Program-made: the position numbers and the translations under genes
From: Roseateles toxinivorans
GTDB lineage: Bacteria > Pseudomonadota > Gammaproteobacteria > Burkholderiales > Burkholderiaceae_C
Reading direction: 5' to 3'
Assembly (NCBI GenBank): GCA_945898095.1
Contig: CAMDHE010000026.1
Span: 1 to 44,316, forward strand
DNA length: 44,316 nt
Shown here: positions 7,632-44,240 of the stretch, piece by piece
How the letters are laid out: each line of letters opens with the position of its first letter
Numbering within the stretch: the stretch's first letter is position 1
The notes under the pieces: generated by a model
Seen by the model: only the letters and a program-made list of their open reading frames with translations
Told to the model about the DNA's origin: nothing
Databases searched by the model: none

Positions 7632-10376
7632 ATGCTGACAATCCTGCGCCAATGGTTCAGCCGCTTCCTGCGTCGGCGGCAGCGACTCAGACATTTCGGG
7701 CGCCATCTGTTCGCTGATGCGCTGGCCAGGCAAGGGCCGGCGCAGCCAGCAGCGCCGCATTTGGCGCGTGAATTGCAGCGTGCGTCCGAGGAAACCCCGG
7801 ATGCGGCGATCGCCCGCAGTCGCTCACATGCCGAAGGTTTGACCCAGGCCGAAGCCCGCAAGCGACTGGCCCGCATCGGACCCAACGAGGTCGAGCATGA
7901 AAAGCCGCTGCCGGCCTGGCTGCATCTCTGGCTTTGCTACAAGAACCCGTTCAACCTGCTGCTCAGCGCATTGGCATTGCTGTCCTTCCTGAGCGAAGAC
8001 GCCAAGGCAACGGTCGTCATCGGCTGCATGGTCGGGCTGAGTACCGTGATCCGCTTCGTCCAGGAAGGCCGCTCGCACCGGGCGGCAGAAAGCCTGAAGG
8101 CGATGGTCGGTAACCGGGCCACGGTGATCCGGCGTACAGCCGGCGCCGACCAAGGCCCGTCAGCGCCAATCGACATCCCGCTGCGCGAGTTGGTACCGGG
8201 CGACCTGGTGGCGCTGTCGGCGGGCGACATGATTCCGGCTGACTGCCGACTGCTGAGTGCGCGGGGCTTGCATATCGCCCAGTCCGCATTGACCGGTGAA
8301 TCGCTGCCGGTGGAGAAGTTCGCGCTGACTATCCGGCATCAGGACAAGGCGGCTGCAGCCGGTCCGCTGGAGAGGAGCAATCTGGTTTTCATGGGCACCA
8401 ACGTGGTCTCGGGAACGGCCACGGCACTGGTGCTGGCCACCGGCAGCCGCAGCTATTTCGGTTCACTGGCATCGAGCGCCATGGCCAGCGACCCGGAGCC
8501 GAATGCGTTTCAGACTGGGGTCAACAGCGTCAGCTGGCTGCTGATCCGCTTCGCGCTGGTGATGGTGCCGATCGTGCTGCTGGTGAACGGGTTCACCAAG
8601 GGCGACTGGATCGAGGCTTCGCTGTTTGCGCTGTCAGTCGCGGTCGGGCTGACGCCGGAAATGCTGCCGATGGTGGTGACGACGACGCTGGCCAAGGGGG
8701 CGGTGCTGTTGTCGCGCAAGAAGGTCGTCGTCAAACGACTCGACGCGATCCAGAACTTCGGCGCGATGGACATGCTTTGCACTGACAAGACCGGCACGCT
8801 GACGCAGGACAAGATTGCGCTGGCCTTGCATGCCGACATCTTCGGCATGCCCTCGGACGAGGTATTGAATTTCGCCTACCTGAACAGCCATCACCAGACC
8901 GGCTTGAAGAACCTGCTCGACCATGCGGTTCTCGAGCATGTCGAGCTTGCCACCTTGCTCAAGCTCGAGCAGGACTACGCCAAGGTCGATGAGATTCCGT
9001 TCGACTTCGAGCGCCGGCGCATGTCGGTCGTGGTGTCCGCGCCCGATCAGCAGCATCAATTGATCTGCAAGGGCGCGGTGGAAGAGGTGTTGGCGGCATG
9101 CATGCATGCGCGCATCGCCGGCCAGAACGGCGCTGAAGACCTGCCGCTCGATGCCCAACTGCTGGCTCGCGTCCAGCAGGTCACGCGGGATTTGAACCAG
9201 CAAGGTTTGCGCGTGGTTGCCGTCGCGATGAAATCGCTGCCGGCGGAGCAGAGCCGCTACTCGGTGGCCGACGAGACCGGCCTGACCTTGATCGGCTATA
9301 TCGCCTTCCTCGACCCACCGAAGGACTCGGCCGCGCCTGCGCTGCAGGCGCTGGCTGCACATGGCATCCGGGTCAAGGTGCTGACCGGTGACAACGAGTT
9401 GGTCACCGCGCGGGTCTGCCGCGATGTCGGCCTGGCGGTACAGGGGGCTTTGCTGGGCGCACAGGTCGAGCAGATGGACGCTGCAGCGTTGGCGCTGGCA
9501 GTCGAAAACAACGACGTTTTTGCCAAGCTCGCGCCGCTGCACAAGGAACGCGTCGTGCGCGCCTTGCGGGCCAATGGCCATGTGGTCGGTTTCATGGGCG
9601 ACGGCATCAACGATGCGCCGGCGCTGCGCGCCGCCGACATCGGCATCTCGGTCGATACGGCGGTCGACATCGCAAAGGAAGCCGCCGACATCATCCTGCT
9701 CGAGAAAAGCCTGCTGGTGCTCGACGAAGGCGTGGTCGAAGGCCGCCGCACCTTCTGCAATATGTTGAAGTACATCCGTATGACGGCGAGCAGCAACTTC
9801 GGCAATGTGCTGTCGGTGCTGGTGGCGAGCGCATTTTTGCCCTTTTTGCCGATGCTGCCGCTGCAGTTGCTGCTGCAGAACCTGCTCTACGACATCTCTC
9901 AGACCGGCATCCCTTTCGACCATGTTGACAAGGAACTGGTCAGCAAGCCGCTCCAATGGAACCCCGCCGACATCGGCCGTTTCATGCTGTTTTTCGGCCC
10001 GATCAGCTCACTCTTTGACCTCGCCACTTTTGCCCTGATGTGGTCGGTTTTTGGCGCCAACAATCTGGCCAACCAAGCGCTGTTCCAGAGCGGCTGGTTC
10101 GTCGTCGGCCTGCTGACGCAGACCCTGGTCGTGCAGATGTTGCGAACACCGAAGCTGCCCTTGATTGAAAGCCGGGCGGCACCGCAGCTGCTGTTGATGA
10201 GCCTGGCCATCATGGCCTTTGGCATCTGGCTGCCGATGGGGCCGCTGGCCGGCTATTTCAAACTGCAAGCGCTGCCGCTGGCATTTTTCCCCTGGCTGCT
10301 GATTCTGCTGGCGGGTTACAGCTTGCTCACTACCCTGATGAAGCGCAGCTACATCAGGCGTTTCGGCTGGCAGTGA
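7632..10376 (+). CDS. mgtA: Magnesium-translocating P-type ATPase
   Basis: A 914-aa P-type ATPase of the P3B Mg2+ importer group. Visible landmarks: cation ATPase N-terminal domain (about 50-90), the first membrane hairpin (about 100-145), actuator motif ALTGESLPVEK, the phosphorylation loop DKTGTLT with Asp385, KGAVEEVL in the nucleotide domain, GDGINDAPAL from residue 656, and a C-terminal block of six membrane helices with LLLQNLLYDISQ, a segment typical of MgtA/MgtB. It imports Mg2+ into the cytoplasm. GGAAAG precedes the chosen ATG by about 7 nt. The N-terminus is rich in Arg, as in E. coli MgtA. No Mg2+-sensing leader could be recognised upstream. Confidence 0.95.
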   Translation: MLTILRQWFSRFLRRRQRLRHFGRHLFADALARQGPAQPAAPHLARELQRASEETPDAAIARSRSHAEGLTQAEARKRLARIGPNEVEHEKPLPAWLHLWLCYKNPFNLLLSALALLSFLSEDAKATVVIGCMVGLSTVIRFVQEGRSHRAAESLKAMVGNRATVIRRTAGADQGPSAPIDIPLRELVPGDLVALSAGDMIPADCRLLSARGLHIAQSALTGESLPVEKFALTIRHQDKAAAAGPLERSNLVFMGTNVVSGTATALVLATGSRSYFGSLASSAMASDPEPNAFQTGVNSVSWLLIRFALVMVPIVLLVNGFTKGDWIEASLFALSVAVGLTPEMLPMVVTTTLAKGAVLLSRKKVVVKRLDAIQNFGAMDMLCTDKTGTLTQDKIALALHADIFGMPSDEVLNFAYLNSHHQTGLKNLLDHAVLEHVELATLLKLEQDYAKVDEIPFDFERRRMSVVVSAPDQQHQLICKGAVEEVLAACMHARIAGQNGAEDLPLDAQLLARVQQVTRDLNQQGLRVVAVAMKSLPAEQSRYSVADETGLTLIGYIAFLDPPKDSAAPALQALAAHGIRVKVLTGDNELVTARVCRDVGLAVQGALLGAQVEQMDAAALALAVENNDVFAKLAPLHKERVVRALRANGHVVGFMGDGINDAPALRAADIGISVDTAVDIAKEAADIILLEKSLLVLDEGVVEGRRTFCNMLKYIRMTASSNFGNVLSVLVASAFLPFLPMLPLQLLLQNLLYDISQTGIPFDHVDKELVSKPLQWNPADIGRFMLFFGPISSLFDLATFALMWSVFGANNLANQALFQSGWFVVGLLTQTLVVQMLRTPKLPLIESRAAPQLLLMSLAIMAFGIWLPMGPLAGYFKLQALPLAFFPWLLILLAGYSLLTTLMKRSYIRRFGWQ

Positions 10377-10413
10377 CTTACAATTACTGCGTCACAGAAT
10401 CAAAGCGCTGACG

Positions 10414-10440
10414 CGGCCCGAGGCAACTCAGGCCGTTTTC
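10414..10440 (+). terminator. Rho-independent terminator after mgtA
   Basis: CGGCC and GGCCG arms enclose an inner GAG/CTC pairing with a GCAA tetraloop, followed by TTTTC. It stands 38 bp after the mgtA stop and separates mgtA from the next gene. Confidence 0.65.
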
Positions 10441-10485
10441 ATTTCAGCCACTTTGAGTCGATCAACGCAGCCCCTGGAAAACACC

Positions 10486-10857
10486 ATGAACCGCTGTGCA
10501 GTTTTTATCGCGGCCCTGGCGTTGAGCTTGGCCGCACAGGCCCAGCGCCTGTTTCCGGCCCAGGCCTTGCGTGGCGAGATGGTCGTCGTTCAGGCGCCCG
10601 AGGTGAGCCTGAACGGCCTGCCCGCGCGCCTATCACCCGGCAGCCGCATCCACGACCAGAGCAACTTGCTGCAGCTGTCAGCCAGCCTGACCGGCCAGCA
10701 ACTGAGCGTCAATTACACCGTCGACCGCGAAGGTCTGATCAAGGAAGTCTGGCTGCTTAGCCCGACGGAGCGGGCCAACAGGCCTTGGCCGCGCAACCCG
10801 CAAGAAGCCGCCGCCTGGACTTTTGACCCGGCCACCCAGACCTGGACAAGACGCTGA
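10486..10857 (+). CDS. Small exported hypothetical protein
   Basis: A 123-aa protein with a clear Sec signal peptide ([20 protein letters not shown], cleavage after AQA). The mature part contains [20 protein letters not shown] and [19 protein letters not shown] and ends with a Trp-rich tail ([14 protein letters not shown]). Similar small proteins occur directly upstream of miaB in Burkholderiales, but I know of no assigned function. The start is chosen at the ATG that begins the signal peptide; an in-frame upstream extension is unlikely. It ends 19 bp before miaB and is probably cotranscribed with it. Confidence 0.75.
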
Positions 10858-10876
10858 AAACACGCAGGAACCCAAT

Positions 10877-12223
10877 ATGAGCAAAAAAGTATTCATCAAG
10901 ACCTTTGGCTGCCAGATGAACGAGTACGACTCGGGCAAGATGGCCGATGTCCTCGGCGCAGCGCAGGGCTATGAGAAGACCGACGATGTGGAACAAGCCG
11001 ACCTGATTCTGTTCAACACCTGTTCGGTGCGCGAAAAAGCGCAGGAAAAGGTCTTCTCCGACCTGGGCCGGGTCAAGCACCTGAAGGCCAAGGGCGTGCT
11101 GATCGGTGTCGGCGGCTGCGTCGCCAGCCAGGAAGGGGCGGCGATCATCGACCGCGCGCCTTACGTCGATCTGGTGTTTGGTCCGCAGACCTTGCACCGC
11201 TTGCCGCAGATGCTCAAAGCGCGCCTGGCCGAGCGTCGTCCGCAAGTCGACATCAGCTTCCCCGAGATCGAGAAATTCGACAATCTGCCCCCGGCCAAGG
11301 TCGACGGCGCATCGGCCTTCGTCTCGGTCATGGAGGGCTGTTCAAAATATTGCTCCTACTGCGTCGTACCCTATACGCGCGGCGAAGAAGTTTCGCGTCC
11401 GTTCGACGATGTGCTGACCGAGATCGCCGGACTGGCCGACCAGGGCGTGCTGGAAATCAACCTGCTCGGCCAGAACGTCAATGCCTACCGCGGCAAGATG
11501 GGTGACAGCGGCGAATATGCCGACCTGGCATTGCTGCTCGAATATGCGGCTGAAATCCCCGGCATCCAGCGCCTGCGTTTCACCACCAGCCACCCGAACG
11601 AGTTCAGCCAGCGCCTGATCGAGGCCTACGGCAAGATCCCGCAATTGGTGAACCATCTGCATCTGCCAGTCCAGCATGGCAGCGATCGCATCCTGATGGC
11701 GATGAAGCGCGGTTACACCGCGCTCGAGTTCAAGAGCACGATCCGCAAGCTGCGTCTGATCCGGCCCGACATCCGCATCGCCAGCGACTTCATCGTCGGC
11801 TTTCCCGGCGAGACCGCCGAAGACCATGGCAAGCTGATGAAGTTGGTCGACGATGTCGGTTTCGATGCGTCCTACAGCTTCATCTTCAGCCCGCGTCCGG
11901 GAACGCCTGCGGCGGCGCTGGAAGACCTGACCCCTTACGAAGCCAAGGTCGCGCGCCTGCAGGAATTGCAGGCCGCGATCGAAGCCAACAGCCTGGCGAT
12001 CAGCCAGACCATGGTCGGATCGACCCAGAAAATCCTGGTGACGGGCAATGCACGCAAGGATGCGAGCGAATTGATGGGGCGCACCGAATGCAACCGCATC
12101 GTCAATTTCAAGGGCCAAGCGCGTTTGATGAATCAGCTGGTCGACGTCACCATCACCCAGGCTTTGGCCCATTCGCTGCGCGCCGAAGTGCTGACCCTCG
12201 ACGAGGTCAGCGTCCCGGCTTGA
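10877..12223 (+). CDS. miaB: tRNA-2-methylthio-N6-dimethylallyladenosine synthase MiaB
   Basis: A 448-aa radical-SAM methylthiotransferase that adds the 2-methylthio group to i6A37 of tRNAs reading UNN codons. The N-terminal domain carries the auxiliary-cluster cysteines ([23 protein letters not shown]). The radical-SAM motif CSKYCSYC gives Cys155, Cys159 and Cys162. [11 protein letters not shown] and the C-terminal TRAM domain complete the family plan. Full length and apparently intact. The ATG at 10877 begins [16 protein letters not shown], the normal N-terminus. The last 17 bp overlap the convergent membrane-protein gene. Confidence 0.97.
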
Positions 12224-29126: not shown

Positions 29127-30164
29127 ATGAAGATCAAGACAAGCATTCGCGCTGGAGCACGCATTCCGCAAAAAGCAACCTTGGGCATGGTCGCTGCCGC
29201 CGCCGGCGTTTCGCCGAGCACGGTGTCGCGTATTCTGAACGGCACCGCCGTCGTCAGCCCGGAAAAGCGCGCTGAGGTCGACAAGGCGATCGCCGAACTC
29301 GGCTTCATCCCGAATCCGGTGGCACGCGGACTGGCCGGTGGGCGCACGCTCAGCGTGGGCGTCATTACCCAGTCGATCGACAGCCCCTTTTATGGGGGTG
29401 CCTTGAGCGGTATCGAAGATGTACTCGGGATGGCGGGCTACAGCCCGCTGTTCGTCAGCGGACATTGGGATGCCGCCGAGGAAGCCCGCTGCATCAATGT
29501 GCTGCGCTCGCGCTGCGTCGACGGCATCATCGTTCTGACCGGGCGGCTCAGCGATCAGGCCTTGCGGGCCTGCGCCAAGACCTTGCCCGTCGTCGTCACC
29601 GGCCGCAATCTCAAGGCGCCCGGGCTTTTCTCGTTGAATTTTGACAATTTTGAAGGCGCAAGGCTGGCAACCCAACATCTGCTGGACCTGGGCCACCAGC
29701 GCATCGCCTTCATCACCGGCGAGCCAGGTCATCCTGATGCGGATGAGCGACTGCGTGGCTACCGCACGGCGATCGAGTCCGCTGCGATTGCATTCGATCC
29801 GGCGCTGGTCGTGCCAGGCCAGTACCACGAGGCCAGTGGCATGAAAGCAGTCGAAAGTCTGCTACAGAGTGGTGCAAGCTTTACCGCGATTTTCGCCGCC
29901 AACGACCAGATGGCCTTCGGCGCAGCGCTGGCGCTCGACCGCCATGGCCTGCATGTTCCCGTCGACGTCTCGCTGGTCGGTTTCGATGACCTGGCTGCAG
30001 CCGCTTATTCGATCCCGCCACTGAGCACCATTCACCAGCCATCGGTCGAGCTTGGCAGGCTCGCCGCATCAGCCATGCTGCAATTACTCGTTGGCAAGAA
30101 GCCGACCATCGCCATGCCGGTACCGAGTCTGGTGGCAAGGTCCTCCAGCCGCGCGCTGGCCTGA
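29127..30164 (+). CDS. LacI-family transcriptional regulator of the beta-glucan locus
   Basis: A 345-aa repressor. The DNA-binding helix-turn-helix and hinge helix occupy about 18-70 (TLGMVAAAAGVSPSTVSRIL, then NPVARGLAGGRT). The periplasmic-binding-protein-like sensor domain runs from about 75 to the end (VGVITQSIDSPFYGGALSGI, GHQRIAFITGEPGHPDADER, FAANDQMAFGAALALDRHG, LVGFDDLAAA). It probably binds TGAAAGCGCTTTCA, present at both divergent arms of the locus, and releases it with a glucoside inducer. TTGAAC (29072-29077) and TAAACT (29094-29099) at 16-bp spacing may be its promoter; no copy of the palindrome lies there, so strong autorepression is not expected. Confidence 0.92.
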   Translation: MKIKTSIRAGARIPQKATLGMVAAAAGVSPSTVSRILNGTAVVSPEKRAEVDKAIAELGFIPNPVARGLAGGRTLSVGVITQSIDSPFYGGALSGIEDVLGMAGYSPLFVSGHWDAAEEARCINVLRSRCVDGIIVLTGRLSDQALRACAKTLPVVVTGRNLKAPGLFSLNFDNFEGARLATQHLLDLGHQRIAFITGEPGHPDADERLRGYRTAIESAAIAFDPALVVPGQYHEASGMKAVESLLQSGASFTAIFAANDQMAFGAALALDRHGLHVPVDVSLVGFDDLAAAAYSIPPLSTIHQPSVELGRLAASAMLQLLVGKKPTIAMPVPSLVARSSSRALA

Positions 30165-30211
30165 GTTGATTCGGTCCGGCTTTTCTGCCGGATCTCAGCG
30201 ATTACCCTTGA

Positions 30212-30240
30212 TTGACATTCAGGCCTGCCGCCAATACATT
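30212..30240 (+). promoter_or_regulatory. Promoter of the glucan ABC-transporter operon
   Basis: TTGACA (30212-30217) and TACATT (30235-30240) are separated by exactly 17 bp. The repressor palindrome starts one base later, covering the transcription start, which explains how repression would work. Confidence 0.7.
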
Positions 30241-30241
30241 A

Positions 30242-30278
30242 TGAAAGCGCTTTCATAAAATAGATGACAGCGCTTTCA
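30242..30278. promoter_or_regulatory. Double LacI-type operator
   Basis: The perfect palindrome TGAAAGCGCTTTCA (30242-30255) is followed by a second copy with one change, TGACAGCGCTTTCA (30265-30278). The centres are 23 bp apart, about two helical turns. The central CG and symmetric arms are typical of LacI-family operators. The pair lies between the promoter and the binding-protein gene. Confidence 0.8.
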
Positions 30279-30333
30279 ATCAAGAACTGACTGGCAGCCA
30301 TCCCGGGCCGCCGGAGTTCGCAGCGGGGGCGGG

Positions 30334-31605
30334 ATGCGGGATCTGGGAATATCGACTGTGCATCGATCGGCTTGGCGCTTGGGCCTGGCGGCTTTGTTGT
30401 GCCTGCCTTGCGCCCACGCGCAGCAGACCTTGACTGTCGCTGCATTCCCGGCTGTGGACGAGATCATCAAGGCCGCCATTCCCGCCTGGAAGAAGTTGCA
30501 CCCGACGGTTGACATCAAGGTCATCAGCCGCCAATTCAATGACCACCACACGGCGATGACAACCGCGCTATCGACATCGGTCTATCTGCCCGATGTGATG
30601 GCGCTGGAGGTCGGCTATGTCGGCCGTTTCGCTCAAGGTGGTGGCCTTGAAGATCTGTCGCGCGAACCCTATGGCATCGGTAAATTCGCCTCGCGCTATG
30701 TGCCCTATGCCTACCAGCAGGGCAGCAATCGCGCCGGTGCGGTGCTCGCTGCCCCGACCGACATCGGACCCGGCACCCTGCTCTACCGCACCGACATCCT
30801 GGCAAGGGCCGGCGTCACCGAGACCGAGTTGACCGCCTCATGGGAAAGCTATGTCGCGTCAGGCATCAAGATCAAGGCCAGCACCGGTGCCTATTTGATG
30901 GCCCATGCCCGCGACATCAAGGACATCGCGATCCGCACCGGCATCCAACCGGGCGAAGGGCTTTATTTCGACAAACAATCTCGAGTGCTGGTGAATTCGC
31001 CACGCTTTTTGCGCGCCTTCGAACTGGCAAGGCAGGTGCGGCAGAACCGGCTCGACGCCAAGGTCTCGCCCTGGTCAACCGAATGGACTGAAGGCTTCAA
31101 GCGCGGCACGCTGGCCACGCAGATGTCGGGGTCATGGCTGGCCGGCCACTTGAACAATTGGCTGGCGCCGGCGACCAAAGGGCTGTGGCGGGCCGCGCAA
31201 TTGCCTGAAGGCTCCTGGGCTGCCTATGGCGGCACCTTCTTGTCGATCCCGCGCAACTCGGCGCCAGGCCGGAAATTGCTCGCCTGGGAGTTGATCCAGA
31301 TGTTGACGCTGGACCGCAAGATGCAACTGGCAGCATTCAAGTCGCAGGATGCCTTCCCGGCCCTGCTGGCGGCACAGGATGATGAATTTTTCGAGCAGCC
31401 GATCGCCTTCCTGGGCGACAAGCCAGCGCGATTGCTATGGCGCGAAGCCAGCCAGCACATCACCGCGGTCGATGTGCACAAGCAGGACTCGTTCGCTGCC
31501 GAGGTCATCGACACCGAACTCGACAAGGTGCTCGACCTGGGCAAGGACATCAAGACCGCGCTCGCCGATGCGCAGCGCCTGCTCGAAAAGCGCGCCAAGC
31601 GCTGA
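30334..31605 (+). CDS. ABC transporter sugar-binding protein
   Basis: A 423-aa periplasmic solute-binding protein of the carbohydrate family (SBP_bac_1). A signal peptide ends at Ala29 (LPCAHA before QQ). The mature protein starts LTVAAFPAVDEIIKAAIPAW, with AMTTALSTSVYLPDVMALEV, GTLLYRTDILARAG and WTEGFKRGTLATQMSGSWLA as family landmarks. It delivers an oligosaccharide, inferred to be a beta-glucoside, to the two permeases that follow. GGGGGCGGG precedes the ATG. It is the first gene of a six-gene operon repressed from the double operator. Confidence 0.9.
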   Translation: MRDLGISTVHRSAWRLGLAALLCLPCAHAQQTLTVAAFPAVDEIIKAAIPAWKKLHPTVDIKVISRQFNDHHTAMTTALSTSVYLPDVMALEVGYVGRFAQGGGLEDLSREPYGIGKFASRYVPYAYQQGSNRAGAVLAAPTDIGPGTLLYRTDILARAGVTETELTASWESYVASGIKIKASTGAYLMAHARDIKDIAIRTGIQPGEGLYFDKQSRVLVNSPRFLRAFELARQVRQNRLDAKVSPWSTEWTEGFKRGTLATQMSGSWLAGHLNNWLAPATKGLWRAAQLPEGSWAAYGGTFLSIPRNSAPGRKLLAWELIQMLTLDRKMQLAAFKSQDAFPALLAAQDDEFFEQPIAFLGDKPARLLWREASQHITAVDVHKQDSFAAEVIDTELDKVLDLGKDIKTALADAQRLLEKRAKR

Positions 31606-31622
31606 ACCAAACCAGCCACAAG

Positions 31623-32552
31623 ATGAAGTTACCCGACGCATTGCGCCTCTCACCCCGCTGGGCACCTTATGCCTTGCTGAGCCCGTTCATCGGGCTGTTT
31701 CTGGTATTCGGTCTTTTCCCGCTGCTGTTTTCGCTCTTCCTTGCCTTCCAGACCTGGGAGCCGACGAGCGGATTGGAGACGATGAAATTCGTCGGCCTGG
31801 GCAATTTCAGCTTTGCGCTGGAGGACGAATGGTTCTGGAAATCATTGGGTAATACCGCCTGGTTGGCCATCGCTTCGGGCCTGCCTCAGCATCTGATCGG
31901 CATTCCGCTGGCCGTCTTTATCCACAACAAGTTCCAGCGTCTACGCAATGGCGTGATCGGCGCCTATTTCCTGCCTTACATCACTTCGACAGTGGCGATC
32001 GCGATCATGTTCAGCGCGCTGTTTTCCACCGATTTCGGCATCATCAACCTGGGCCTGGGCGCAATCGCCAAGTTGCCCATGCTGGGCTCCTTGCTGCCTG
32101 CCGAGCCGATCGACTGGCTCGGACGTCCCGAGAATATCAAGCCAGCGCTGGCGATGATCGTGTTCTGGCGCTATGTCGGTTTCAACGTCGTGCTCTACCT
32201 GGCCGCGCTGCAGACGATCCCGGCCGATCTTTACGAAGCCGCGCGAATGGACGGCGCCGGTCGCTGGCAGCAATTCTGGTTCATCACCTTGCCGAGCCTG
32301 AAGCCGATGATCTATTTCGGCGTCACGCTGAGCGTGATCGGAGGTCTGCAGTTGTTCGAGGAGCCCTTCATCCTCACTGGCGGGCGTGGCGGCTCGGACC
32401 AGTCGGGCATGACGACGGCGATCTACCTCTATCGCATGGCCTTCGACTTCAATGATTTCGGTGCCGCCAGCGCAATGTCCTGGCTGCTGTTTTTGCTGGT
32501 CGCGCTGCTGACCTGGCTGACCAACCGCGCTTTCCGCCAGCGTTCAGCCTGA
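31623..32552 (+). CDS. Sugar ABC transporter permease 1 (MalF type)
   Basis: A 309-aa inner-membrane permease with six predicted helices and a first helix YALLSPFIGLFLVFGLFPLL. The cytoplasmic EAA loop reads EAARMDGAGRWQQFWFITLP, which contacts the ATPase. LTGGRGGSDQSGMTTAIYLY is typical of oligosaccharide permeases of this family. The ATG at 31623 follows the binding-protein stop by 17 bp; a longer open frame upstream overlaps that gene and is rejected. Confidence 0.92.
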   Translation: MKLPDALRLSPRWAPYALLSPFIGLFLVFGLFPLLFSLFLAFQTWEPTSGLETMKFVGLGNFSFALEDEWFWKSLGNTAWLAIASGLPQHLIGIPLAVFIHNKFQRLRNGVIGAYFLPYITSTVAIAIMFSALFSTDFGIINLGLGAIAKLPMLGSLLPAEPIDWLGRPENIKPALAMIVFWRYVGFNVVLYLAALQTIPADLYEAARMDGAGRWQQFWFITLPSLKPMIYFGVTLSVIGGLQLFEEPFILTGGRGGSDQSGMTTAIYLYRMAFDFNDFGAASAMSWLLFLLVALLTWLTNRAFRQRSA

Positions 32553-32559
32553 GGCCGCG

Positions 32560-33390
32560 ATGAAAAAAAGTACCGGACAGCTGAGTCATTGGGCCGCCTA
32601 CTGCATGGTTGGCATCGGCGCGCTGGTGATGCTGGCGCCGTTCTATTTCATGTTCGTTTTCGCGACCCATTCGCGCACCGAAATCTTCAGTCTGCCGCCG
32701 CCGCTGTTCTTCGGCGATGACTTTCTGGCCAACTTGCAGATCCTGACCTCGCGCCTGCCCTTCTGGCGCAACCTCGGCTGGAGTTTCTACGTTGCCCTGG
32801 CATCGACCGCGCTGACGCTGCTGTTCTGCTCGATGGGCGGCTATGCCTTCGCGCTGTTCGACTTCCGCTTCAAGAACATGCTGTTCGGCTTGGTCATGGG
32901 AACGATGTTGCTGCCTTCCTTCATGAACATGATCCCGACCTTCATGATCATGGACATTCTGGGCTGGATCGACCAACCCCGCGCGCTCTATATCCCCGGC
33001 GCCGCCAGTGCCTTCGGCATTTTCCTGATGCGGCAATTCGTCCTGGCATCGGTTCCCAAGGAACTGGTCGAGGCGGCGCGCATGGACGGTTGCAATGAGC
33101 TGGCCATTTACTGGCGCATCGTGCTGCCGCTGCTCAAGCCTGCACTTGGCACGCTCGGATTGATCACCTTCATCGCCTCATGGAACAACTTTATCGGGCC
33201 GCTGATCGTGATGCGTTCGCCCGATATGTACACCTTGCCGTTGGCTCTGCGCAGTCTGCAAAGTCCGGTCGACACCGAATGGGGCGCCTTGATGGCAGGC
33301 TCGGCCATCGCCACCATACCGCTGCTGATTCTGTTCGCCCTGTCATCGCGACAGCTGATTTCCGGCCTGACGGCAGGCGCCGTCAAGTAA
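32560..33390 (+). CDS. Sugar ABC transporter permease 2 (MalG type)
   Basis: A 276-aa permease with six predicted helices starting MKKSTGQLSHWAAYCMVGIG. The EAA loop is EAARMDGCNELAIYWRIVLP, and the C-terminal part FIASWNNFIGPLIVMRSPDM and TLPLALRSLQ matches MalG-type partners. It begins 7 bp after permease 1 and forms the transmembrane dimer with it. Confidence 0.93.
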   Translation: MKKSTGQLSHWAAYCMVGIGALVMLAPFYFMFVFATHSRTEIFSLPPPLFFGDDFLANLQILTSRLPFWRNLGWSFYVALASTALTLLFCSMGGYAFALFDFRFKNMLFGLVMGTMLLPSFMNMIPTFMIMDILGWIDQPRALYIPGAASAFGIFLMRQFVLASVPKELVEAARMDGCNELAIYWRIVLPLLKPALGTLGLITFIASWNNFIGPLIVMRSPDMYTLPLALRSLQSPVDTEWGALMAGSAIATIPLLILFALSSRQLISGLTAGAVK

Positions 33391-33423
33391 GCGCCTGCCC
33401 AACTGATCATTCATTTTCACCTC

Positions 33424-34797
33424 ATGACCAAAACATCGCCTGAATTTCCAGCTCACCAGTTCCCGCCGGACTTCGTCTGGGGCGTGGCGACCAGTTCCTT
33501 CCAGATTGAAGGCGCCACCAACAAAGACGGGCGCGGCGATTCGATCTGGGACAGCTTTTGCCGTCTGCCTGGCGTCATCGCTGATGGCAGCGATGGCAGC
33601 ATCGCCTGCGATCATTACCACCGGCTGGATGAGGACCTGGACCTGATCGCCAGCCTGGGTGTCAATGCCTACCGTTTTTCGGTCTCCTGGCCACGCGTCC
33701 AACCGAGCGGCAGCGGCGCCTGGAATGAGGCCGGACTGGCCTTCTACGAGCGACTGGTCGACGGACTGCTGGCGCGCGGCATCAAACCCTACCTGACGCT
33801 GAACCACTGGGACTTGCCAGCCGCATTGCAGGCCAGCGGCGGCTGGGCCAATCGCGACACGGTGTACCGCTTTGTCGACTACGCGCTTGGGCTGAACGCA
33901 AGGATCGGCGACCGGGTCGCCTCGATCGCCACCCACAACGAACCCTGGGTGGTGGCCTTTCTCGGCCATGAAAGCGGCATCTTCGCGCCCGGCATAAAAG
34001 ACCGCGCGGTGGCGGCGCAGGTCTCGCACCATCTGCTGCTCAGCCATGGCCTGGCGCTGCAAGCGCTGCGCGCGCAGGGCTGCAAAGCAAGCCTGGGCAT
34101 CGTGCTGAACCTGGCGCCAGTGCAGGCAGCAACGACTTCGGCCGAGGACATTGAACAAGCCCATCTCGAGGACGGGCGCCTGCTGCGCTGGTATATGGAC
34201 CCGTTGTTCAAGGGCTGCTACCCGCAGGATGTACTCGACTTCCTGGGCGAAGATGCGCCGCGGGTCGAGGCCGGCGACATGCAGGAGATCGCGCTGCCGA
34301 TGGACTTTCTTGGCATCAACTATTACTCGCGTTCGGTGGTCAGTGCGGCCGGTCCCTGGGACAACAAGACCAGCGGCCTCGAGCTGACCGACATGGGCTG
34401 GGAGATCTACCCCGAAGGCCTGACCCATTTGCTGCTGCGACTGCACCAGGACTATGCCGTGCCGCCGCTTTACATCACCGAAAACGGCGGAGCTTTCAAG
34501 GATCCTTTGGTCGGTGGACGAGTCAAGGACCAAGACCGCACCGCCTATATCGCCGCGCATATCGGGGCTGTCGGCGCTGCCATGCGGCAAGGAGTGCCGA
34601 TGCGTGGCTATATGGTCTGGAGCCTGCTCGACAACTTCGAATGGGCCTCGGGCTATGAGAAGCGCTTTGGCATCATCCATGTCGATTACGCCACCCAGAT
34701 CCGTACGCCCAAACAGAGCGCGGTCTGGTACCGAGACTTTTTGCGGGCGCAGCAACTGGCCCATGCGCCACTCAACGTCGCGTTGACGGAGGTCTGA
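33424..34797 (+). CDS. GH1 beta-glucosidase
   Basis: A 457-aa family 1 glycoside hydrolase without a signal peptide, so cytoplasmic. FPPDFVWGVATSSFQIEGAT is the N-terminal signature. The acid/base Glu173 lies in ATHNEPWV and the nucleophile Glu353 in YITENGGAF; GYMVWSLLDNFEWASGYEKR forms the glucose subsite. It should release glucose from imported beta-linked gluco-oligosaccharides with retention. It sits inside the ABC operon between permease 2 and the ATPase (2 bp before the latter), implying that transport product and enzyme substrate are the same. Confidence 0.95.
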   Translation: MTKTSPEFPAHQFPPDFVWGVATSSFQIEGATNKDGRGDSIWDSFCRLPGVIADGSDGSIACDHYHRLDEDLDLIASLGVNAYRFSVSWPRVQPSGSGAWNEAGLAFYERLVDGLLARGIKPYLTLNHWDLPAALQASGGWANRDTVYRFVDYALGLNARIGDRVASIATHNEPWVVAFLGHESGIFAPGIKDRAVAAQVSHHLLLSHGLALQALRAQGCKASLGIVLNLAPVQAATTSAEDIEQAHLEDGRLLRWYMDPLFKGCYPQDVLDFLGEDAPRVEAGDMQEIALPMDFLGINYYSRSVVSAAGPWDNKTSGLELTDMGWEIYPEGLTHLLLRLHQDYAVPPLYITENGGAFKDPLVGGRVKDQDRTAYIAAHIGAVGAAMRQGVPMRGYMVWSLLDNFEWASGYEKRFGIIHVDYATQIRTPKQSAVWYRDFLRAQQLAHAPLNVALTEV

Positions 34798-34798
34798 G

Positions 34799-35848
34799 AT
34801 GGGTCAGGTATCACTGCGCGGAATCCGCAAGAGCTTTGGCAAGACCGATGTCATCAACGGCATCGATCTCGAGGTGCGCGACGGCGAATTCCTGGTCTTC
34901 GTCGGCCCTTCGGGCTGCGGCAAGTCAACGATGCTGCGCATGATTGCCGGGCTCGAGACGATCAGCAGTGGCGAATTGCAGATCGACGGCCGACGCGCCA
35001 ACGAGCTCAGACCTTCAGATCGCGGCGCAGCGATGGTGTTCCAGACTTACGCGCTCTATCCGCATATGACGGTGGCCGAAAACATGGGTTTTTCTCTGCA
35101 GATGTCGGGCGTCAGCAAGGCCAGTCGGCAATTGCAGGTCGGGCGCATCGCCGAGGTCCTGCATATCACCGAACTGCTTGACCGCTTCCCGAAGGATTTG
35201 TCAGGGGGCCAGCGCCAGCGCGTGGCGATTGGCCGCGCCATCGTCCGAAAACCCAAGGTGTTCCTTTTCGACGAGCCGCTTTCCAACCTCGATGCGGCCT
35301 TGCGCGTGACGATGCGAATCGAGTTGTCGAGGTTGCACAAGGAACTCGGCACGACGATGATTTACGTCACTCATGACCAGGTCGAGGCGATGACCTTGGG
35401 TGACCGCATCGCCGTCTTTCATAAAGGCCAGATTGCCCAGCTCGGTGCACCGATGGACTTGTACAACCGCCCGGCCAACGAGTTCGTCGCCGGTTTTCTG
35501 GGCGCACCCCGAATCAATTTGATCGATTGCCCGAAGCCTGGCGCAGCCGCGCCGCATCAGGCCTTGTGGGAAGCGCTGAAGGCGCCATCCGGCGCTTGCC
35601 GGACAGGCCTGCGACCTGAACATTTGCAACTGGTCCCGGAAGGTACCGGCATTCCAGCCAAGGTCGAACTGGCCGAACATCTGGGCGATGCATCGATCAT
35701 CCACTTGCGAGTCGAAGGTGTCAGCGAGCTTTTGTGTGCCAAGGTCGGTGTTGGCCACAGCCGGATTGCCACCGGTCAGGCAGTCGGCCTGGCGCCAGAT
35801 GCTTCATGGTCGCTGGCCTTTGATGCCGTCACAAGGCTGCTGGCCTGA
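34799..35848 (+). CDS. Sugar ABC transporter ATP-binding protein (MalK/UgpC/MsmX type)
   Basis: A 349-aa ATPase. Walker A is GPSGCGKS at 36-43, the signature LSGGQ at 134-138, Walker B VFLFDEP with Asp158 and Glu159, and the switch His in IYVTHDQVEAM. The last 110 residues form the TOBE-type regulatory domain (GLRPEHLQLVPEG). It energises the two permeases. Its start is one base past the GH1 stop, so translation is coupled. Confidence 0.95.
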   Translation: MGQVSLRGIRKSFGKTDVINGIDLEVRDGEFLVFVGPSGCGKSTMLRMIAGLETISSGELQIDGRRANELRPSDRGAAMVFQTYALYPHMTVAENMGFSLQMSGVSKASRQLQVGRIAEVLHITELLDRFPKDLSGGQRQRVAIGRAIVRKPKVFLFDEPLSNLDAALRVTMRIELSRLHKELGTTMIYVTHDQVEAMTLGDRIAVFHKGQIAQLGAPMDLYNRPANEFVAGFLGAPRINLIDCPKPGAAAPHQALWEALKAPSGACRTGLRPEHLQLVPEGTGIPAKVELAEHLGDASIIHLRVEGVSELLCAKVGVGHSRIATGQAVGLAPDASWSLAFDAVTRLLA

Positions 35849-35851
35849 ACG

Positions 35852-39661
<3,810 letters not shown>

Positions 39662-39666
39662 GCCGG

Positions 39667-40935
39667 TCAAGCGGCCAGCGCAGCGAGCATTGAAGCAGTG
39701 ACCAGCGTGATACCGCTTTCAGTGCGGAAGAAACGCTTCGCATCGGCAACGGGGTCGAAACCGATCACCATGCCGTCAGGGATATAGCAGCGCCGGTCGA
39801 TCACCACCCGGTTCAACTTCACATGGCGACCGACTTGAACTTCGGGCAGCAGCACCGACCATTCAACGCTTGAATAGGAATGGACGCGAACGCCCGAAAA
39901 CAGCACCGAGCGGAACACGCTGCCCGAAATGATGCTGCCACCAGAGATCAGTGATTCGACCGCCATGCCGCGGCGGTCGGCCTCGTTATGGACGAATTTG
40001 GCCGGTGCGAGCTGGGGCTGGTGGGTCCAGATCGGCCAGTCGGTGTCGTACAGATTCAGCTGCGGATCGGTGGCAGTGAGGTCGATATTGGCATCCCAGT
40101 AGGAATCAATCGTGCCCACATCGCGCCAATAGGTTTCCTCGCCAGGCTTGCCGCCAACGCAGCTGAGCTCGAAGGGATGGGCTGCCGCTTGCCCCAGACG
40201 AACTGCGCGCGGAATGATGTCCTTGCCGAAATCATGGGTCGAATCGGGGTCGGCCATGTCACGCGCCAACTCCGCGTAGAGGAATTTGGCGTTGAAGATA
40301 TAGATGCCCATGCTGACCAGCGAGCGGTCGGTGCTGCCTGGCATGCAGGGCGGGTCTGCAGGTTTCTCGACGAAATCGGTGATCTTCCAATGCTCATCGA
40401 CTGCCATCACGCCAAAGCCCTTGGCCTCCTCGCGAGGCACGTCGATGCAGGCCACCGTGCATTCGCGCCCTTTGGCCACATGGTCGGCCAGCATCAGCGC
40501 ATAGTTCATCTTGTAGATATGGTCACCGCCAAGCACTACGACAAACTCGGCGTTGTAGCCGTCGAGAATGTCCTGATTCTGCGACACGGCATCGGCGGTG
40601 CCGCGGTACCAGAACTCCTCGTTCATCCGCTGCTGCGCCGGCAGCAGGTCGACGAACTCGTTCATCTCGTTTTTCAGGAAGGACCAGGCCCGCTGCATAT
40701 GGCGCAGCAGGCTGTGGCTCTTGTACTGGGTGATCACGCCGATGCGCCGAATGCCTGAATTGAGGCAATTCGACATCGCGAAATCGACGATCCGGAACTT
40801 GCCGCCGAAGTAGACGGCGGGTTTGGCCCGGCGGTCGGTCAGATGATGCAAGCGGCTGCCACGCCCTCCGGCCAACACCAGAGCGATGGCTCTTTTCGGC
40901 AGTTCAAGACTCTGGATCAAATGATTGGATTGCAT
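39667..40935 (-). CDS. glgC: Glucose-1-phosphate adenylyltransferase (ADP-glucose pyrophosphorylase)
   Basis: A 422-aa enzyme making ADP-glucose, the controlled step of glycogen synthesis. [20 protein letters not shown] is the nucleotide-binding N-terminus, [39 protein letters not shown] and [18 protein letters not shown] are family signatures, and a left-handed beta-helix domain ends the protein. The ATG at 40935 begins [20 protein letters not shown]; a longer open frame runs into the GH17 terminator. Only 22 bp separate the ATG from that terminator, leaving little space for an independent promoter. Confidence 0.96.
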
Positions 40936-40957
40936 CTTGCCGACCGGGCTGCGGAGT

Positions 40958-40990
40958 AAAAAACGCCCGCCGGCAGCAAACCGCACGGGC
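40958..40990 (-). terminator. Hairpin terminator between GH17 and glgC
   Basis: On the minus strand GCCCG-TG-CGG pairs with CCG-GCGGGC (one small bulge) around a TTTGCTG loop and is followed by G and six T. It lies 8 bp after the GH17 stop and 22 bp before glgC. The imperfect stem may allow read-through into the glycogen genes. Confidence 0.65.
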
Positions 40991-40998
40991 ATCAGAAG

Positions 40999-42777
40999 CT
41001 ATTTTGACCAATATACCGCGTCGACATAGATCTTGGTCTTGTCGCCCTTGGCACTGTTGCCGGTCACGCCGTAAATATCGGTCATAACGAACGGATTGGT
41101 CACTTTTGTCAGGTCGAACTTGGCAACAGCCGGCGAATTGCCATAGGAGGGAGCCCCTGCCGCCTTGATCGCGCTGATCGGTACCGAGACGTTGTGCCAT
41201 TGGCCGTCGTTGATATAGCCATAGCCATCGGCATTGCTGGCGCTGATCGGCAAGTAGACGTCATAAGCGGTGCTGCCGCTGCCAGTCAGAAAACCAATCT
41301 GTAGCTTGCCCGGATAGGTCGTCTTGATGCGCAGATTCAGTTTCCCGGAAGCTTCGAACTGACTCAGGTCGGTCGACGCGCTATAGGTCGTGAACATGCC
41401 CCAACCGTAAAGATTGGCCGCATTCGGCGAGGGCCCGATTTCCATGAAGTGGAACAGCTCGCCATCGGCCGCTGCTCCGACCGATTCACCGGCGAAGGCG
41501 TTCGGTGGGCTGTCCCAGCCGAACCATTGCAGGGCGCTGACCCTGACCTCGCCCGCCGTCACGGTGTCGGCATAGAGCGTGTAGCGATTGGCCGTGACGG
41601 TCGAAGCGACGATCGTCGGAGCGAACAGCGCATCGCTGAGCTTCCAACTGCCCGGCTCCCATTGGCTGGAGGGATAAAGGCTTTGGATCGCGTAACGCGC
41701 CTGTCTGGCAACGTTGAACAAGCCCCATTTGTCATCGCTGGATTTCCAGGGCTCGTCAAAGGCCTCGAAATAGAAGATCGCGGTCGGGCCGGCGGGATTC
41801 TTGGTCTTGTCGACCCATTCGTTCAGTCGGTCCAGATACATCTTCTGGTTGACCGGATGAGCGCGGTTGAATTCGCCCTTTGACGGGTCGGCCTTCCAGC
41901 CGGTTTCACCGATCACGATCGGCATGCGGGTCAGGCCCTTGCTGTCGAGGAGGCTACGCACCTCGGCGTAATGGGCTTTGGCCGAGGCGATCGCCGCGTC
42001 CATCATCGCCGTGGCGCGTGTCGCCTCGGGCACCGCCTGCTGCTGCCAGTCCCAGCTGGCCACGGCCGGCGGAGTTGTTTCAGCCAAGGGGTAGATATGG
42101 ACCGCGACAAAGTCGATCGCGTCGGTGATCGTCGTCGGCGCGTTCGCATAGAAGCCGCGGTCGTCGTCGGTCGTCACCGGCTGACTGATCTTGCTGCGCA
42201 CCGACTTCAGATAGGCCGCAATGATCGTCGGGTCGGTCGGAACGAAAGACCAACTGACCATCGTTTCATTGCCGACACTGACCGCCAGGACGATGTCCGG
42301 ATACGCCAGAGCCAGCGCTACCGCGCGGCTGGTTTCTGCCAGATTGAAGGTCTGGTTCGCAGACTTCTGGGCGGCAGTCAGGCCGGTAGCGCTTTCGCTG
42401 AGGATATAGGCACCGAGCATCACCTTGATGTCGAGGCCCTTGTCCTTGATCACCTGCAAGGTCAGCTTGGCCACATTGTCCGAACTGTCAAACAACCGGA
42501 TCAAGCGGAAGCCACCGGTCAGCAGCAGGCGCAGGTCCTGCTCGACGTTGGCGGCGGTGATGGTTTCGGTATCGCGATTGGCGGTCCGGAACGGCGAATA
42601 GGACACCGCCTTGCGCAGGCCGAACTCGGGACTCAGGCTGCGCATCTGCACGCCGGTGGCTGGCACCACGCCGCCGCCGCCGCAAGCAAACAGCAGCAAG
42701 GCAGTGAACAGGGCAGCGCAGACTTGGATCAATTTGCGGGGATTGGATGACATGACTTGAGGTGCTGATGATTTCAT
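40999..42777 (-). CDS. GH17 family surface lipoprotein, endo-beta-1,3-glucanase type
   Basis: A 592-aa exported protein. A lipobox (LLFAC, Cys32) follows a hydrophobic segment and is trailed by GGGG, so it should be a lipoprotein. Residues about 50-365 form the GH17 (beta/alpha)8 barrel: the acid/base Glu171 is in VSVGNETMVSW and the nucleophile Glu291 in VIGETGW; IFYFEAFDEPWK is also typical of the family. A C-terminal beta-rich domain (about 385-592), ending KIYVDAVYWSK, looks like a carbohydrate-binding jelly roll. GAGG precedes the ATG. Ten bp separate it from the porin. A 1,3-glucanosyltransferase role is the alternative. Confidence 0.85.
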   Translation of the reverse strand: MKSSAPQVMSSNPRKLIQVCAALFTALLLFACGGGGVVPATGVQMRSLSPEFGLRKAVSYSPFRTANRDTETITAANVEQDLRLLLTGGFRLIRLFDSSDNVAKLTLQVIKDKGLDIKVMLGAYILSESATGLTAAQKSANQTFNLAETSRAVALALAYPDIVLAVSVGNETMVSWSFVPTDPTIIAAYLKSVRSKISQPVTTDDDRGFYANAPTTITDAIDFVAVHIYPLAETTPPAVASWDWQQQAVPEATRATAMMDAAIASAKAHYAEVRSLLDSKGLTRMPIVIGETGWKADPSKGEFNRAHPVNQKMYLDRLNEWVDKTKNPAGPTAIFYFEAFDEPWKSSDDKWGLFNVARQARYAIQSLYPSSQWEPGSWKLSDALFAPTIVASTVTANRYTLYADTVTAGEVRVSALQWFGWDSPPNAFAGESVGAAADGELFHFMEIGPSPNAANLYGWGMFTTYSASTDLSQFEASGKLNLRIKTTYPGKLQIGFLTGSGSTAYDVYLPISASNADGYGYINDGQWHNVSVPISAIKAAGAPSYGNSPAVAKFDLTKVTNPFVMTDIYGVTGNSAKGDKTKIYVDAVYWSK

Positions 42778-42787
42778 TGAATTCGCC

Positions 42788-44104
42788 TCAGAACGCGTAG
42801 ACGGCGCCTAGGCCGAACCAGTTGCCGTTCTTGGCAACGCGTGGATCGACATTGGTGAATGCGATATTGCTCGGCATCGACATCGGCGCCAGCCCGATGC
42901 GGGCGTAATTGACCAGACCGGCCATGCTGTAGAGCTGGAAACCGCTAGGGAAGGCGTAGTTCAGGCCCACCGTGTTGATGGCGACTGCATTGCTCTGGCC
43001 GCGCTCACTCGGGTTAGGGGTGTCTCCCTTGCTGAGATAGACCATGCCGGTCGACGCGGTCCAAGCGCCCATGCGGTAGCGCAGGCCCAGCATCAGGTCG
43101 GTCGTTGTGACAGGGTAGCCTGGATTGGCCACGCCATTGAGCTTGCCGTTCCAGTCGACATTGAACATGCTGTTCCACTGCGCCGAGACACCCGGCACGG
43201 TGATGATGGCGTAGGCGCCGCTCCAGCGGTTGCGGCGCAAGCCGCCCGAGACTTCGATCTTGGCATTGACCTGGTAGCGCGCCATCACCATCGCCATGCT
43301 CTGCCCGGAGCCACCGAGCTTGCTGTCGTCGGCAGGAAACGGTGTCAACCCGGCAAAAGGCGCGTGGCCCCAGGCGACAGGCTGGCCATTGCGGCTGTCC
43401 TGATACATCGCGTCAACAACCAGGTCACCGCGAACATATTGGGCATAAAGCTCGACGAACTGCGGTTTATTTACCTTCCACCCAGACGGGCCTGAGTCAT
43501 AGGTCGCCTCGAGCACCAGATCACCGTCGAGGAAGTCAATCGGGCGGAAGGTATAGCGCGCCGCATGACCGAGCAAGCCATAGCCGGCACCGCTCGAGCC
43601 CCAGGGGTCGGCGACGCCGACATTGGTGCCATAAGGGTAGTCGGCCATGCTCCAGGCCCTGGTAGTCATGCTGCCGACGCGCAGGCTGCCGTACTCTTCA
43701 TGGCTGACGGCGATGTTCTTGTCGTACCACCAGCCGTCGATGTCGATCTTGCCATCGCGCCAGCGCTGACTGACCAGGCCCGCGATCTTGAAACCCCGCC
43801 CCAAGTCGAACTTGACGCCCAGATAGGGCTGGGCCAGAGTCACCGTCGTCGTCCGGGTGCCATAGGGCGTGCCGATCACCAACTCGTCGGCCCAGATACG
43901 TTGCCGTTCTTCGCCAGGGAAGCGCTGGCAATCGGCGCATTGATTGCTGCCCTGCTGGACCTCGGCCTTGGCAAAGCCGTTGAGAGTGAATGGGCCGAAA
44001 TCTATTGCGTGGCTGGTGGCGCTGGCGGCCAGGCCTGCAATCAGCAACGCACCGCGCACGGCCTTGCTCCCAGTCGGGAAAGATGAAGAGAAATGATGGT
44101 CCAT
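42788..44104 (-). CDS. Outer-membrane porin of the glucan locus
   Basis: A 438-aa protein with a signal peptide (cleavage after SHA at 33) and a beta-rich mature part that ends in GLGAVYAF, with a C-terminal Phe as in trimeric porins. Alternating strands such as VLEATYDSGPSGWKVN and LMLGLRYRMGAWTASTG support a beta-barrel. An unusual CADC pair (Cys56, Cys59) lies just after the first strand. The family cannot be named with certainty. It is inferred to pass glucan oligosaccharides across the outer membrane. The ATG at 44104 is 20 bp downstream of the operator; a longer open frame to 44206 would cross the promoter and is rejected. Confidence 0.8.
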   Translation of the reverse strand: MDHHFSSSFPTGSKAVRGALLIAGLAASATSHAIDFGPFTLNGFAKAEVQQGSNQCADCQRFPGEERQRIWADELVIGTPYGTRTTTVTLAQPYLGVKFDLGRGFKIAGLVSQRWRDGKIDIDGWWYDKNIAVSHEEYGSLRVGSMTTRAWSMADYPYGTNVGVADPWGSSGAGYGLLGHAARYTFRPIDFLDGDLVLEATYDSGPSGWKVNKPQFVELYAQYVRGDLVVDAMYQDSRNGQPVAWGHAPFAGLTPFPADDSKLGGSGQSMAMVMARYQVNAKIEVSGGLRRNRWSGAYAIITVPGVSAQWNSMFNVDWNGKLNGVANPGYPVTTTDLMLGLRYRMGAWTASTGMVYLSKGDTPNPSERGQSNAVAINTVGLNYAFPSGFQLYSMAGLVNYARIGLAPMSMPSNIAFTNVDPRVAKNGNWFGLGAVYAF

Positions 44105-44123: not shown

Positions 44124-44139
44124 TTGAAAGCGCTTTCAA
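44124..44139. promoter_or_regulatory. LacI-type operator of the porin-GH17 operon
   Basis: A perfect 16-bp palindrome, TTGAAAGCGCTTTCAA, contains the same 14-bp core as the operator of the ABC operon. It lies between the -10 element and the porin ATG. Confidence 0.85.
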
Positions 44140-44169
44140 AGGATACTCTTCCTGCTTGCCAGCGGTCAA
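44140..44169 (-). promoter_or_regulatory. Promoter of the porin-GH17 operon
   Basis: On the minus strand TTGACC (44164-44169) and TATCCT (44140-44145) are separated by 18 bp. The 14-bp operator core begins one base after the -10 hexamer, exactly as at the ABC operon promoter. Confidence 0.6.
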
Positions 44170-44240
44170 TGAAGATGTTCTGCGGGTATTCCCTCGGCTG
44201 TTGCATTCACCCCAAAGACAACTCGACTGCAAGCTCTTGC

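Follow-up and report, generated by a model that had tools for sequence, protein, structure and literature searches.

A predicted LacI-controlled beta-1,3-glucan regulon with glycogen synthesis genes in the operon of its GH17 glucanase

The 44,316-nucleotide stretch of Roseateles toxinivorans DNA analysed here, referred to as the window, is the whole of contig C26 in a 4.71 Mb genome of 209 contigs. Two operons converge in it, one on the forward strand encoding a LacI-family regulator, a sugar-binding protein, two permeases, a GH1 beta-glucosidase, an ATPase and MtnB, the other on the reverse strand encoding a porin, a GH17 lipoprotein, glgC, glgA and pgm; the ends of pgm and mtnB share 8 overlapping bases. 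We consider it likely that this locus is the main cluster of a LacI-controlled regulon for beta-1,3-glucan use, with storage genes placed in the same operon as a glucanase. Sequence evidence for the beta-1,3-glucan regulon is strong. That imported carbon is banked as glycogen is plausible, given the order and tight spacing of the genes, the presence of only one glgC and the return of the arrangement in other lineages; this storage coupling is the more interesting and the less certain part, limited by its rarity and by one decayed example.

An operator shared by both arms of the locus and by distant genes

We found the same palindrome at the predicted promoters of both arms, as would be expected of a LacI regulon. 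Upstream of the ATP-binding cassette (ABC) operon, the forward strand carries TTGACA (30212–30217) and, after 17 bp, TACATT (30235–30240), which we read as the −35 and −10 boxes of a promoter spanning 30212–30240. Behind this predicted −10 box lie a putative operator with the exact palindrome, TGAAAGCGCTTTCA (O1, 30242–30255), and, 23 bp from it, a version with one mismatch, TGACAGCGCTTTCA (O2, 30265–30278). The porin operon repeats this arrangement on the reverse strand, with TTGACC (44169–44164), an 18 bp spacer and TATCCT (44145–44140) forming the predicted promoter (44140–44169), and an exact TGAAAGCGCTTTCA directly behind its −10 box (44125–44138). Comparable layouts precede the binding-protein gene and the porin gene in many of the relatives whose promoters we compared. 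For the porin we favour a start at 44104, because the longer open reading frame (ORF), reaching to 44206, would take in the operator.

The idea that the palindrome is a meaningless loose match was rejected on genome-wide counts, with 6 exact copies in 4.71 Mb against 0 for the reversed control. Allowing up to one mismatch gave 10 matches against 2, and within the window alone, at up to two mismatches, there were 4 matches against a shuffle mean of 0.25, with 1 of 100 shuffles reaching 4. The four exact copies outside the window precede genes for a GH81 enzyme and a lipoprotein (both on contig C71), a GH16 lipoprotein (C103) and a di-haem protein (C2); the window therefore appears to be part of a dispersed regulon, in which three laminarinase families, GH17, GH81 and GH16, each stand behind an exact operator and under apparent common control. 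The C71 lipoprotein matched no Pfam family, and by eye its C-terminal half resembles two repeated domains. Among the one-mismatch sites, those at 30265 and at C71:2663 adjoin exact copies; the sites at C69:7365, between genes for an AMP-binding enzyme and SelO, and at C140:2199, within an ORF, were not counted as targets. The related genome G016 holds 7 exact copies, by genes for LacI, the binding protein (two contig ends), the porin, GH81, the lipoprotein, GH16 and the di-haem protein. The di-haem target itself is a protein of 1012 residues with a di-haem oxidoreductase (DHOR) domain (gene 8111–11149 in record L040, operator at 8043), and an exact operator stands at the DHOR gene both in the window's genome and in G016 (L171).

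Contig C71 opens with the GH81 and lipoprotein genes, and in two congeners, G016 and G017, GH81 is divergent from the porin and adjoins it. The true locus therefore probably extends beyond the window's end, with C71 probably adjoining it; we looked for an exact overlap joining the ends of C26 and C71 and saw none, and the proposed adjacency is drawn from synteny with G016 and G017.

A second conserved element, GGGAATACCC, lies on the reverse strand upstream of the porin −35 box (44184–44193), and a GGGWAAAC-like version occurs on the forward strand upstream of the −35 box of the ABC operon (30201–30207) and upstream of GH81 in L041. The pattern, which was picked by eye after the sequences had been viewed, was found at 45 of 54 porin, 43 of 51 GH81 and 9 of 15 binding-protein promoters; in a single-base shuffle the corresponding averages were 1.2, 1.1 and 0.4. 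In the window's own genome a version is present at 5 of 6 promoters, the binding-protein promoter having only ATTACCC and the GH16 promoter none. Its position and recurrence suggest a possible activator site.

Conservation of the porin-GH17 pair and its operator

We scanned for related loci with a six-row GH17 alignment and kept the best 80 of a longer list. A porin lies directly before GH17 in 60 of these under one scoring and in 59 under another, according to the score threshold; the 20 loci left out include contig ends, loci lacking a porin and loci from other phyla. The first-pass annotation had proposed a gene-neighbourhood survey across Burkholderiales, and this one found the porin-GH17 pair recurring with divergent GH81 and operators: at least 60 loci, mostly from Burkholderiales, have the pair, 56 of 60 with divergent GH81, and 51 of these 56 have one or more exact operators in the GH81-porin interval, 45 of them two or more. 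Across the best 80 loci we counted 166 exact operators in 1.33 Mb, compared with 0.005 expected at uniform base composition. Many of these loci also have ABC, GH1 and LacI genes nearby, and in related loci the same operator has beside it a LacI 61–76% identical to that of the window. Among the records are named strains of Limnohabitans, Rhodoferax (including Rhodoferax lacus), Leptothrix and Paucibacter, and the window's genome belongs to the same genus as Paucibacter sp. KBW04. With the operator on both arms, before GH81 and GH16 elsewhere in the genome and kept in about 60 related loci, the earlier proposal of a coordinated beta-1,3-glucan locus of a non-SusCD kind is borne out; neither SusC nor SusD was present among the locus genes and operator targets, the part of the genome that was scanned for them.

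The operator is not exclusive to the porin-GH17 type of locus. We detected it in 30 of 148 relatives, 22 of which had no strong match to this GH17 (E below 1e-100), and exclusivity was rejected on this count. From 10 of these 22 genomes we took 12 stretches (L208–L219), chosen by us rather than at random, and all 12 match ABC, GH1, GH16, GH30, glucokinase or LacI references, the sole reference match in L213 being a GH16 at 38%. Of 8 large operator-proximal ORFs in these stretches, the 7 that were scanned, all but the one in L210, encode TonB receptors. The outer-membrane gate of the regulon thus looks interchangeable, a porin or a TonB receptor behind one operator.

Several further features of the related loci were recorded. 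Two loci in metagenome bins labelled Holophagaceae (Acidobacteriota), L061 and L071, have GH81, porin, GH17 and GH30 genes close to the Burkholderiales versions and lack the operator, through transfer or misbinning. Near GH81, clustering placed a long CGGG-type lipoprotein of variable length in 33 of 61 loci (for example L041, 2806–4464); some copies have Ig-like domains, and it may be a glycan-binding protein. In Paucibacter sp. KBW04 (G004), a single ORF of 821 residues (L048, 10776–13241) has both MFS and GH17 domains, a fusion that the Formosa authors, in the available part of their paper, knew from no other bacteria (PMC6246565).

Gene products and the probable substrate

The first-pass annotation had read a LacI regulator, an ABC operon with GH1, a porin plus GH17 lipoprotein, and glgC-glgA-pgm as contiguous, and these genes are present where it placed them. 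The convergence of the two operons, the mtnB gene and the limited family matches of GH17 and the porin are additions to that reading. The regulator, a predicted repressor (29127–30164, forward strand), has both a LacI-type helix-turn-helix and a periplasmic-binding-like domain (Pfam LacI and Peripla_BP_3). Behind it on the same strand, one operon encodes a complete sugar ABC importer: a periplasmic sugar-binding protein (30334–31605; Pfam SBP_bac_8), whose nearest solved chain is 8bfy, named as a putative secreted cellobiose-binding protein (E 1.7e-28); two permeases (31623–32552 and 32560–33390; both Pfam BPD_transp_1, the former with best NCBIfam matches to GlcT, UgpA and MalF, all below cut-off); and a UgpC/MalK-like ATPase (34799–35848; UgpC type, NF008653, 433.3 bits against a cut-off of 432). 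Between the permeases and the ATPase lies GH1 (33424–34797), by family match a clear beta-glucosidase (TIGR03356, 608 bits, cut-off 478.5) with NEP and TENG motifs located by script; inspection by eye revealed no signal peptide, and the enzyme is predicted to be cytoplasmic.

On the reverse strand, the predicted outer-membrane porin (42788–44104) has no match in Pfam or NCBIfam. Its AlphaFold2 model (mean predicted local distance difference test score 89.9) contains 16 strands of at least 8 residues, counted by eye, and its best fold matches are porins, which are likewise 16-stranded. The nearest solved fold is the chitoporin VhChiP of Vibrio harveyi (5mdo, E 2.1e-20), yet identity is 13–14%, and any sugar selectivity of the chitoporin-like fold here is putative.

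The GH17 lipoprotein (40999–42777, reverse strand; lipobox LFAC) matches Pfam over residues 244–364 only (39.2 bits, cut-off 28.2). It matches the solved GH17 structure 6fcg over residues 57–370 (E 9.6e-27), a span that covers both catalytic motifs, and the glutamate motifs VGNE and GETGW, at residues 168 and 290, align with it; 6FCG is the Formosa endo-beta-1,3-glucanase FbGH17A (PMC6246565). The protein is a predicted endo-beta-1,3-glucanase, with a sequence compatible with either hydrolysis or transglycosylation. In a profile search, its C-terminal, carbohydrate-binding-like module hit 1wmx and 2c24, both CBM30 structures.

CBM30 modules bind other beta-glucans, and this module raises the alternative that the same machinery serves a fungal or plant beta-1,3-glucan, paramylon or a mixed-linkage glucan rather than algal laminarin. 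We regard this as unlikely, while giving it real weight. The likeness of the binding protein to a putative cellobiose-binding protein favours it, as does the placement of the genome's only GH30 match on contig C1, where no operator was found, which leaves the regulon without a visible debranching enzyme. Limnohabitans and Rhodoferax lacus, which are lake bacteria, are among the related records and speak for laminarin. So does the enzyme set, GH16, GH17 and GH81 being laminarinase families (PMC13188888, in the portion available); GH30, for its part, debranches laminarin in Formosa (PMC6246565).

Glycogen synthesis genes behind GH17

Only 6 nt separate the GH17 stop from glgC (glucose-1-phosphate adenylyltransferase, 39667–40992; TIGR02091, 495 bits), so the gap has no room for a promoter. 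On the same, reverse strand glgA follows after about 5 nt (ADP-glucose glycogen synthase, 38228–39661; NF001899 and TIGR02095 above cut-off) and, after about 26 nt, pgm, the last gene of the porin operon (phosphoglucomutase, 36573–38201; NF005737, 920 bits; SASHNP motif). For glgA we used the ATG at 39661 (the listed ORF begins at 39670), and the pgm start at 38201 was our choice. From this spacing we infer that the storage genes are co-transcribed with GH17. The window's glgC is the single above-cut-off match in the genome, which contains glgC, glgA and a branching enzyme; contig C8 holds glgP, glgB, glgX and malQ together, and two glucokinases likewise.

The linkage of GH17, porin, ABC uptake and glycogen genes had been called unusual at first pass, a description that holds for its glycogen part and not for the GH17-porin-ABC part, which is common. 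What appears to be unusual is glgC-glgA-pgm directly behind GH17, a position often held by GH30. Among 59 porin-GH17 loci, the gene after GH17 was GH30 in 26, none of the references within 900 bases in 11, a convergent ATPase gene in 8, a contig end in 5 and glgC in 4, with LacI, glucokinase, GH16, MFS and T2SSE in 1 each.

Within the best 80 loci, glg genes occur at five. Two of these, L057 and L058, come from the window's congeners G016 and G017 and have the window's gene order, and in L079 glgC, glgA and the start of pgm are present in that order up to a contig end. In L094 (11745–12227) we found glgC only as residues 132–210 and 355–440, no glgA and a full-length pgm match; judged from these remnants, it is a relic, a decayed glycogen insertion. 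In L114 the genes for porin, GH17, GH30, glucokinase, MFS, GH17, glgC, glgA and pgm are all codirectional, glgC lying 5.5 kb past GH17. Among eight genomes with strong GH17 matches, glgC stands beside GH17 only in G000, G016 and G017. Within the genus, glgC is present in 4 of 18 genomes, with none found in 14, and glgB in 14 of 18; this GH17 is present in 5, including all four with glgC, the fifth being a 79% complete bin (these counts ignore kinship). Across the 148 relatives, glgC is present in 71.

When GH81, porin and GH17 of 53 loci were placed on a tree (quick search, with Shimodaira-Hasegawa-like approximate likelihood-ratio support only), the glg label, carried by six rows, requires at least 4 changes, gains or losses, forced by well-supported branches, and is more clustered than in most shuffles (8 of 500 were as low). 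A tree built from 36 glgC rows (those of the window, G004 and four linked loci, plus 30 of the other glgC matches) groups the window clade with L079 (88/72, below the star threshold), with the unlinked G004 next and L114 apart; the glgC genes of the window clade and L079 may therefore share a recent source.

These data bear on a second alternative, in which the beta-1,3-glucan regulon is real and glgC-glgA-pgm simply landed downstream of it as housekeeping genes with an internal promoter of their own and no programmed coupling. We judge this improbable, at roughly one chance in four. The 6-nt gap between GH17 and glgC argues against it, as do the identical order in two congeners and L079 and the repeated changes of the glg label on the locus tree.

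Several observations weigh against storage coupling, or against parts of the proposed regulon, and the first of them favour chance placement. Counting porin-GH17 loci with at least 3 kb downstream, glg genes lie behind GH17 in 5 of 48 and were not found in 43 (3 of 41 with at least 8 kb); of those five, two belong to congeners of the window, one is the L094 relic, whose retained pgm and lost glgA imply that the link is dispensable, and L114 has its glg genes 5.5 kb away. The branching and breakdown genes are outside the regulon, glgP-glgB-glgX-malQ and both glucokinases having no operator at up to one mismatch. G004, G028 and G069 carry this GH17 and glgC on separate contigs, in G014 and G035 this GH17 is present and no glgC was found, and a promoter inside GH17 is possible. 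In addition, 5 of 56 GH81-porin intervals lack an exact operator. Finally, MtnB fits no role in the proposed scheme: this methionine-salvage enzyme (methylthioribulose-1-phosphate dehydratase, 35852–36580, forward strand; TIGR03328, 161.8 bits, cut-off 137.05) closes the ABC operon in the window as it does in G016 and G017, and was matched, among the best 80 loci, only in L057 and L058.

Proposed mechanism

Taking the LacI-controlled regulon with storage genes as our working scheme, surface lipoproteins (GH17, and the GH16 encoded on C103) and exported GH81 would cut beta-1,3-glucan, as their family membership suggests. The chitoporin-like porin would let the oligosaccharides through, the binding protein and two permeases would take them up, and cytoplasmic GH1 would free glucose from them. 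Until a glucan-derived inducer is present, LacI sitting immediately behind the −10 boxes would keep the promoters silent. With glgC, glgA and pgm close behind GH17, that inducer should also increase the synthesis of ADP-glucose and glycogen, so that some of the glucose taken up would be stored as alpha-glucan. Since the genome's one ADP-glucose pyrophosphorylase would answer to the beta-glucan repressor, beta-1,3-glucan itself would turn on glycogen synthesis. We advance this switch tentatively and with somewhat less than even confidence, together with its corollary that the coupling arose separately in several Burkholderiales lineages, with storage genes placed behind porin-GH17 either directly or farther down the array. 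A third alternative is that the operon builds beta-glucan, GH17 serving as a transglycosylase on glucan that the cell itself exports or holds in its envelope. It draws on the existence of GH17 transglycosylases in Muricauda and Proteobacteria but is very improbable: the protein is a lipoprotein carrying a binding-like module, its neighbours are a porin, GH81, GH1 and an ABC importer, no beta-glucan synthase was seen among the locus genes scanned, and the solved structure nearest to GH17 is, on the available account, a laminarin hydrolase.

Discussion

Laminarin use has been described for marine Bacteroidota with SusCD systems (PMC6246565, PMC13188888) and for Gammaproteobacteria with TonB uptake (PMC8371827), and our comparisons extend as far as the available portions of these papers. 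The Bacteroidota loci of Formosa and Muricauda have in common with the predicted regulon a GH17 homologous to FbGH17A and a GH16, whereas this regulon has porin and ABC import, a LacI regulator, GH81 and glycogen genes in the operon. Relatives of the window add two further likenesses to Formosa, GH30 and the MFS-GH17 fusion. Gammaproteobacterial clusters likewise combine GH3, GH16, GH17, GH30 and occasionally GH81; they have TonB-dependent transporters where the window has a porin, and sampled relatives of the window have TonB receptors behind the same operator.

The closest regulatory parallel that we considered is Caulobacter BglR and GluR (PMC4052901), also LacI-type regulators with DNA sites on sugar-use operons. 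In comparison with what is available on that system, the window's predicted regulon extends to glucanases that are secreted, to a porin and to the committed step in making glycogen; the main text of that paper contains none of the words Comamonadaceae, Leptothrix and glycogen. Relative to the classical GlgC-GlgA pathway, the window has glgC and glgA, with glgB, glgP and glgX elsewhere in the genome, so that the genes for synthesis follow a glucanase gene, apart from those for branching and breakdown. In the literature searched, with subscription papers mostly outside it, we found no account of a Burkholderiales regulon of this kind or of the glycogen link.

The predicted regulon gives Burkholderiales, among them Limnohabitans, Rhodoferax, Leptothrix and Paucibacter, a defined and testable system for beta-1,3-glucan use. 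If the glycogen link is true, the cue for carbon storage is a polymer used as food and not the general nutrient state, and in the window's lineage the consumption of one polymer looks genetically coupled to the storage of another.

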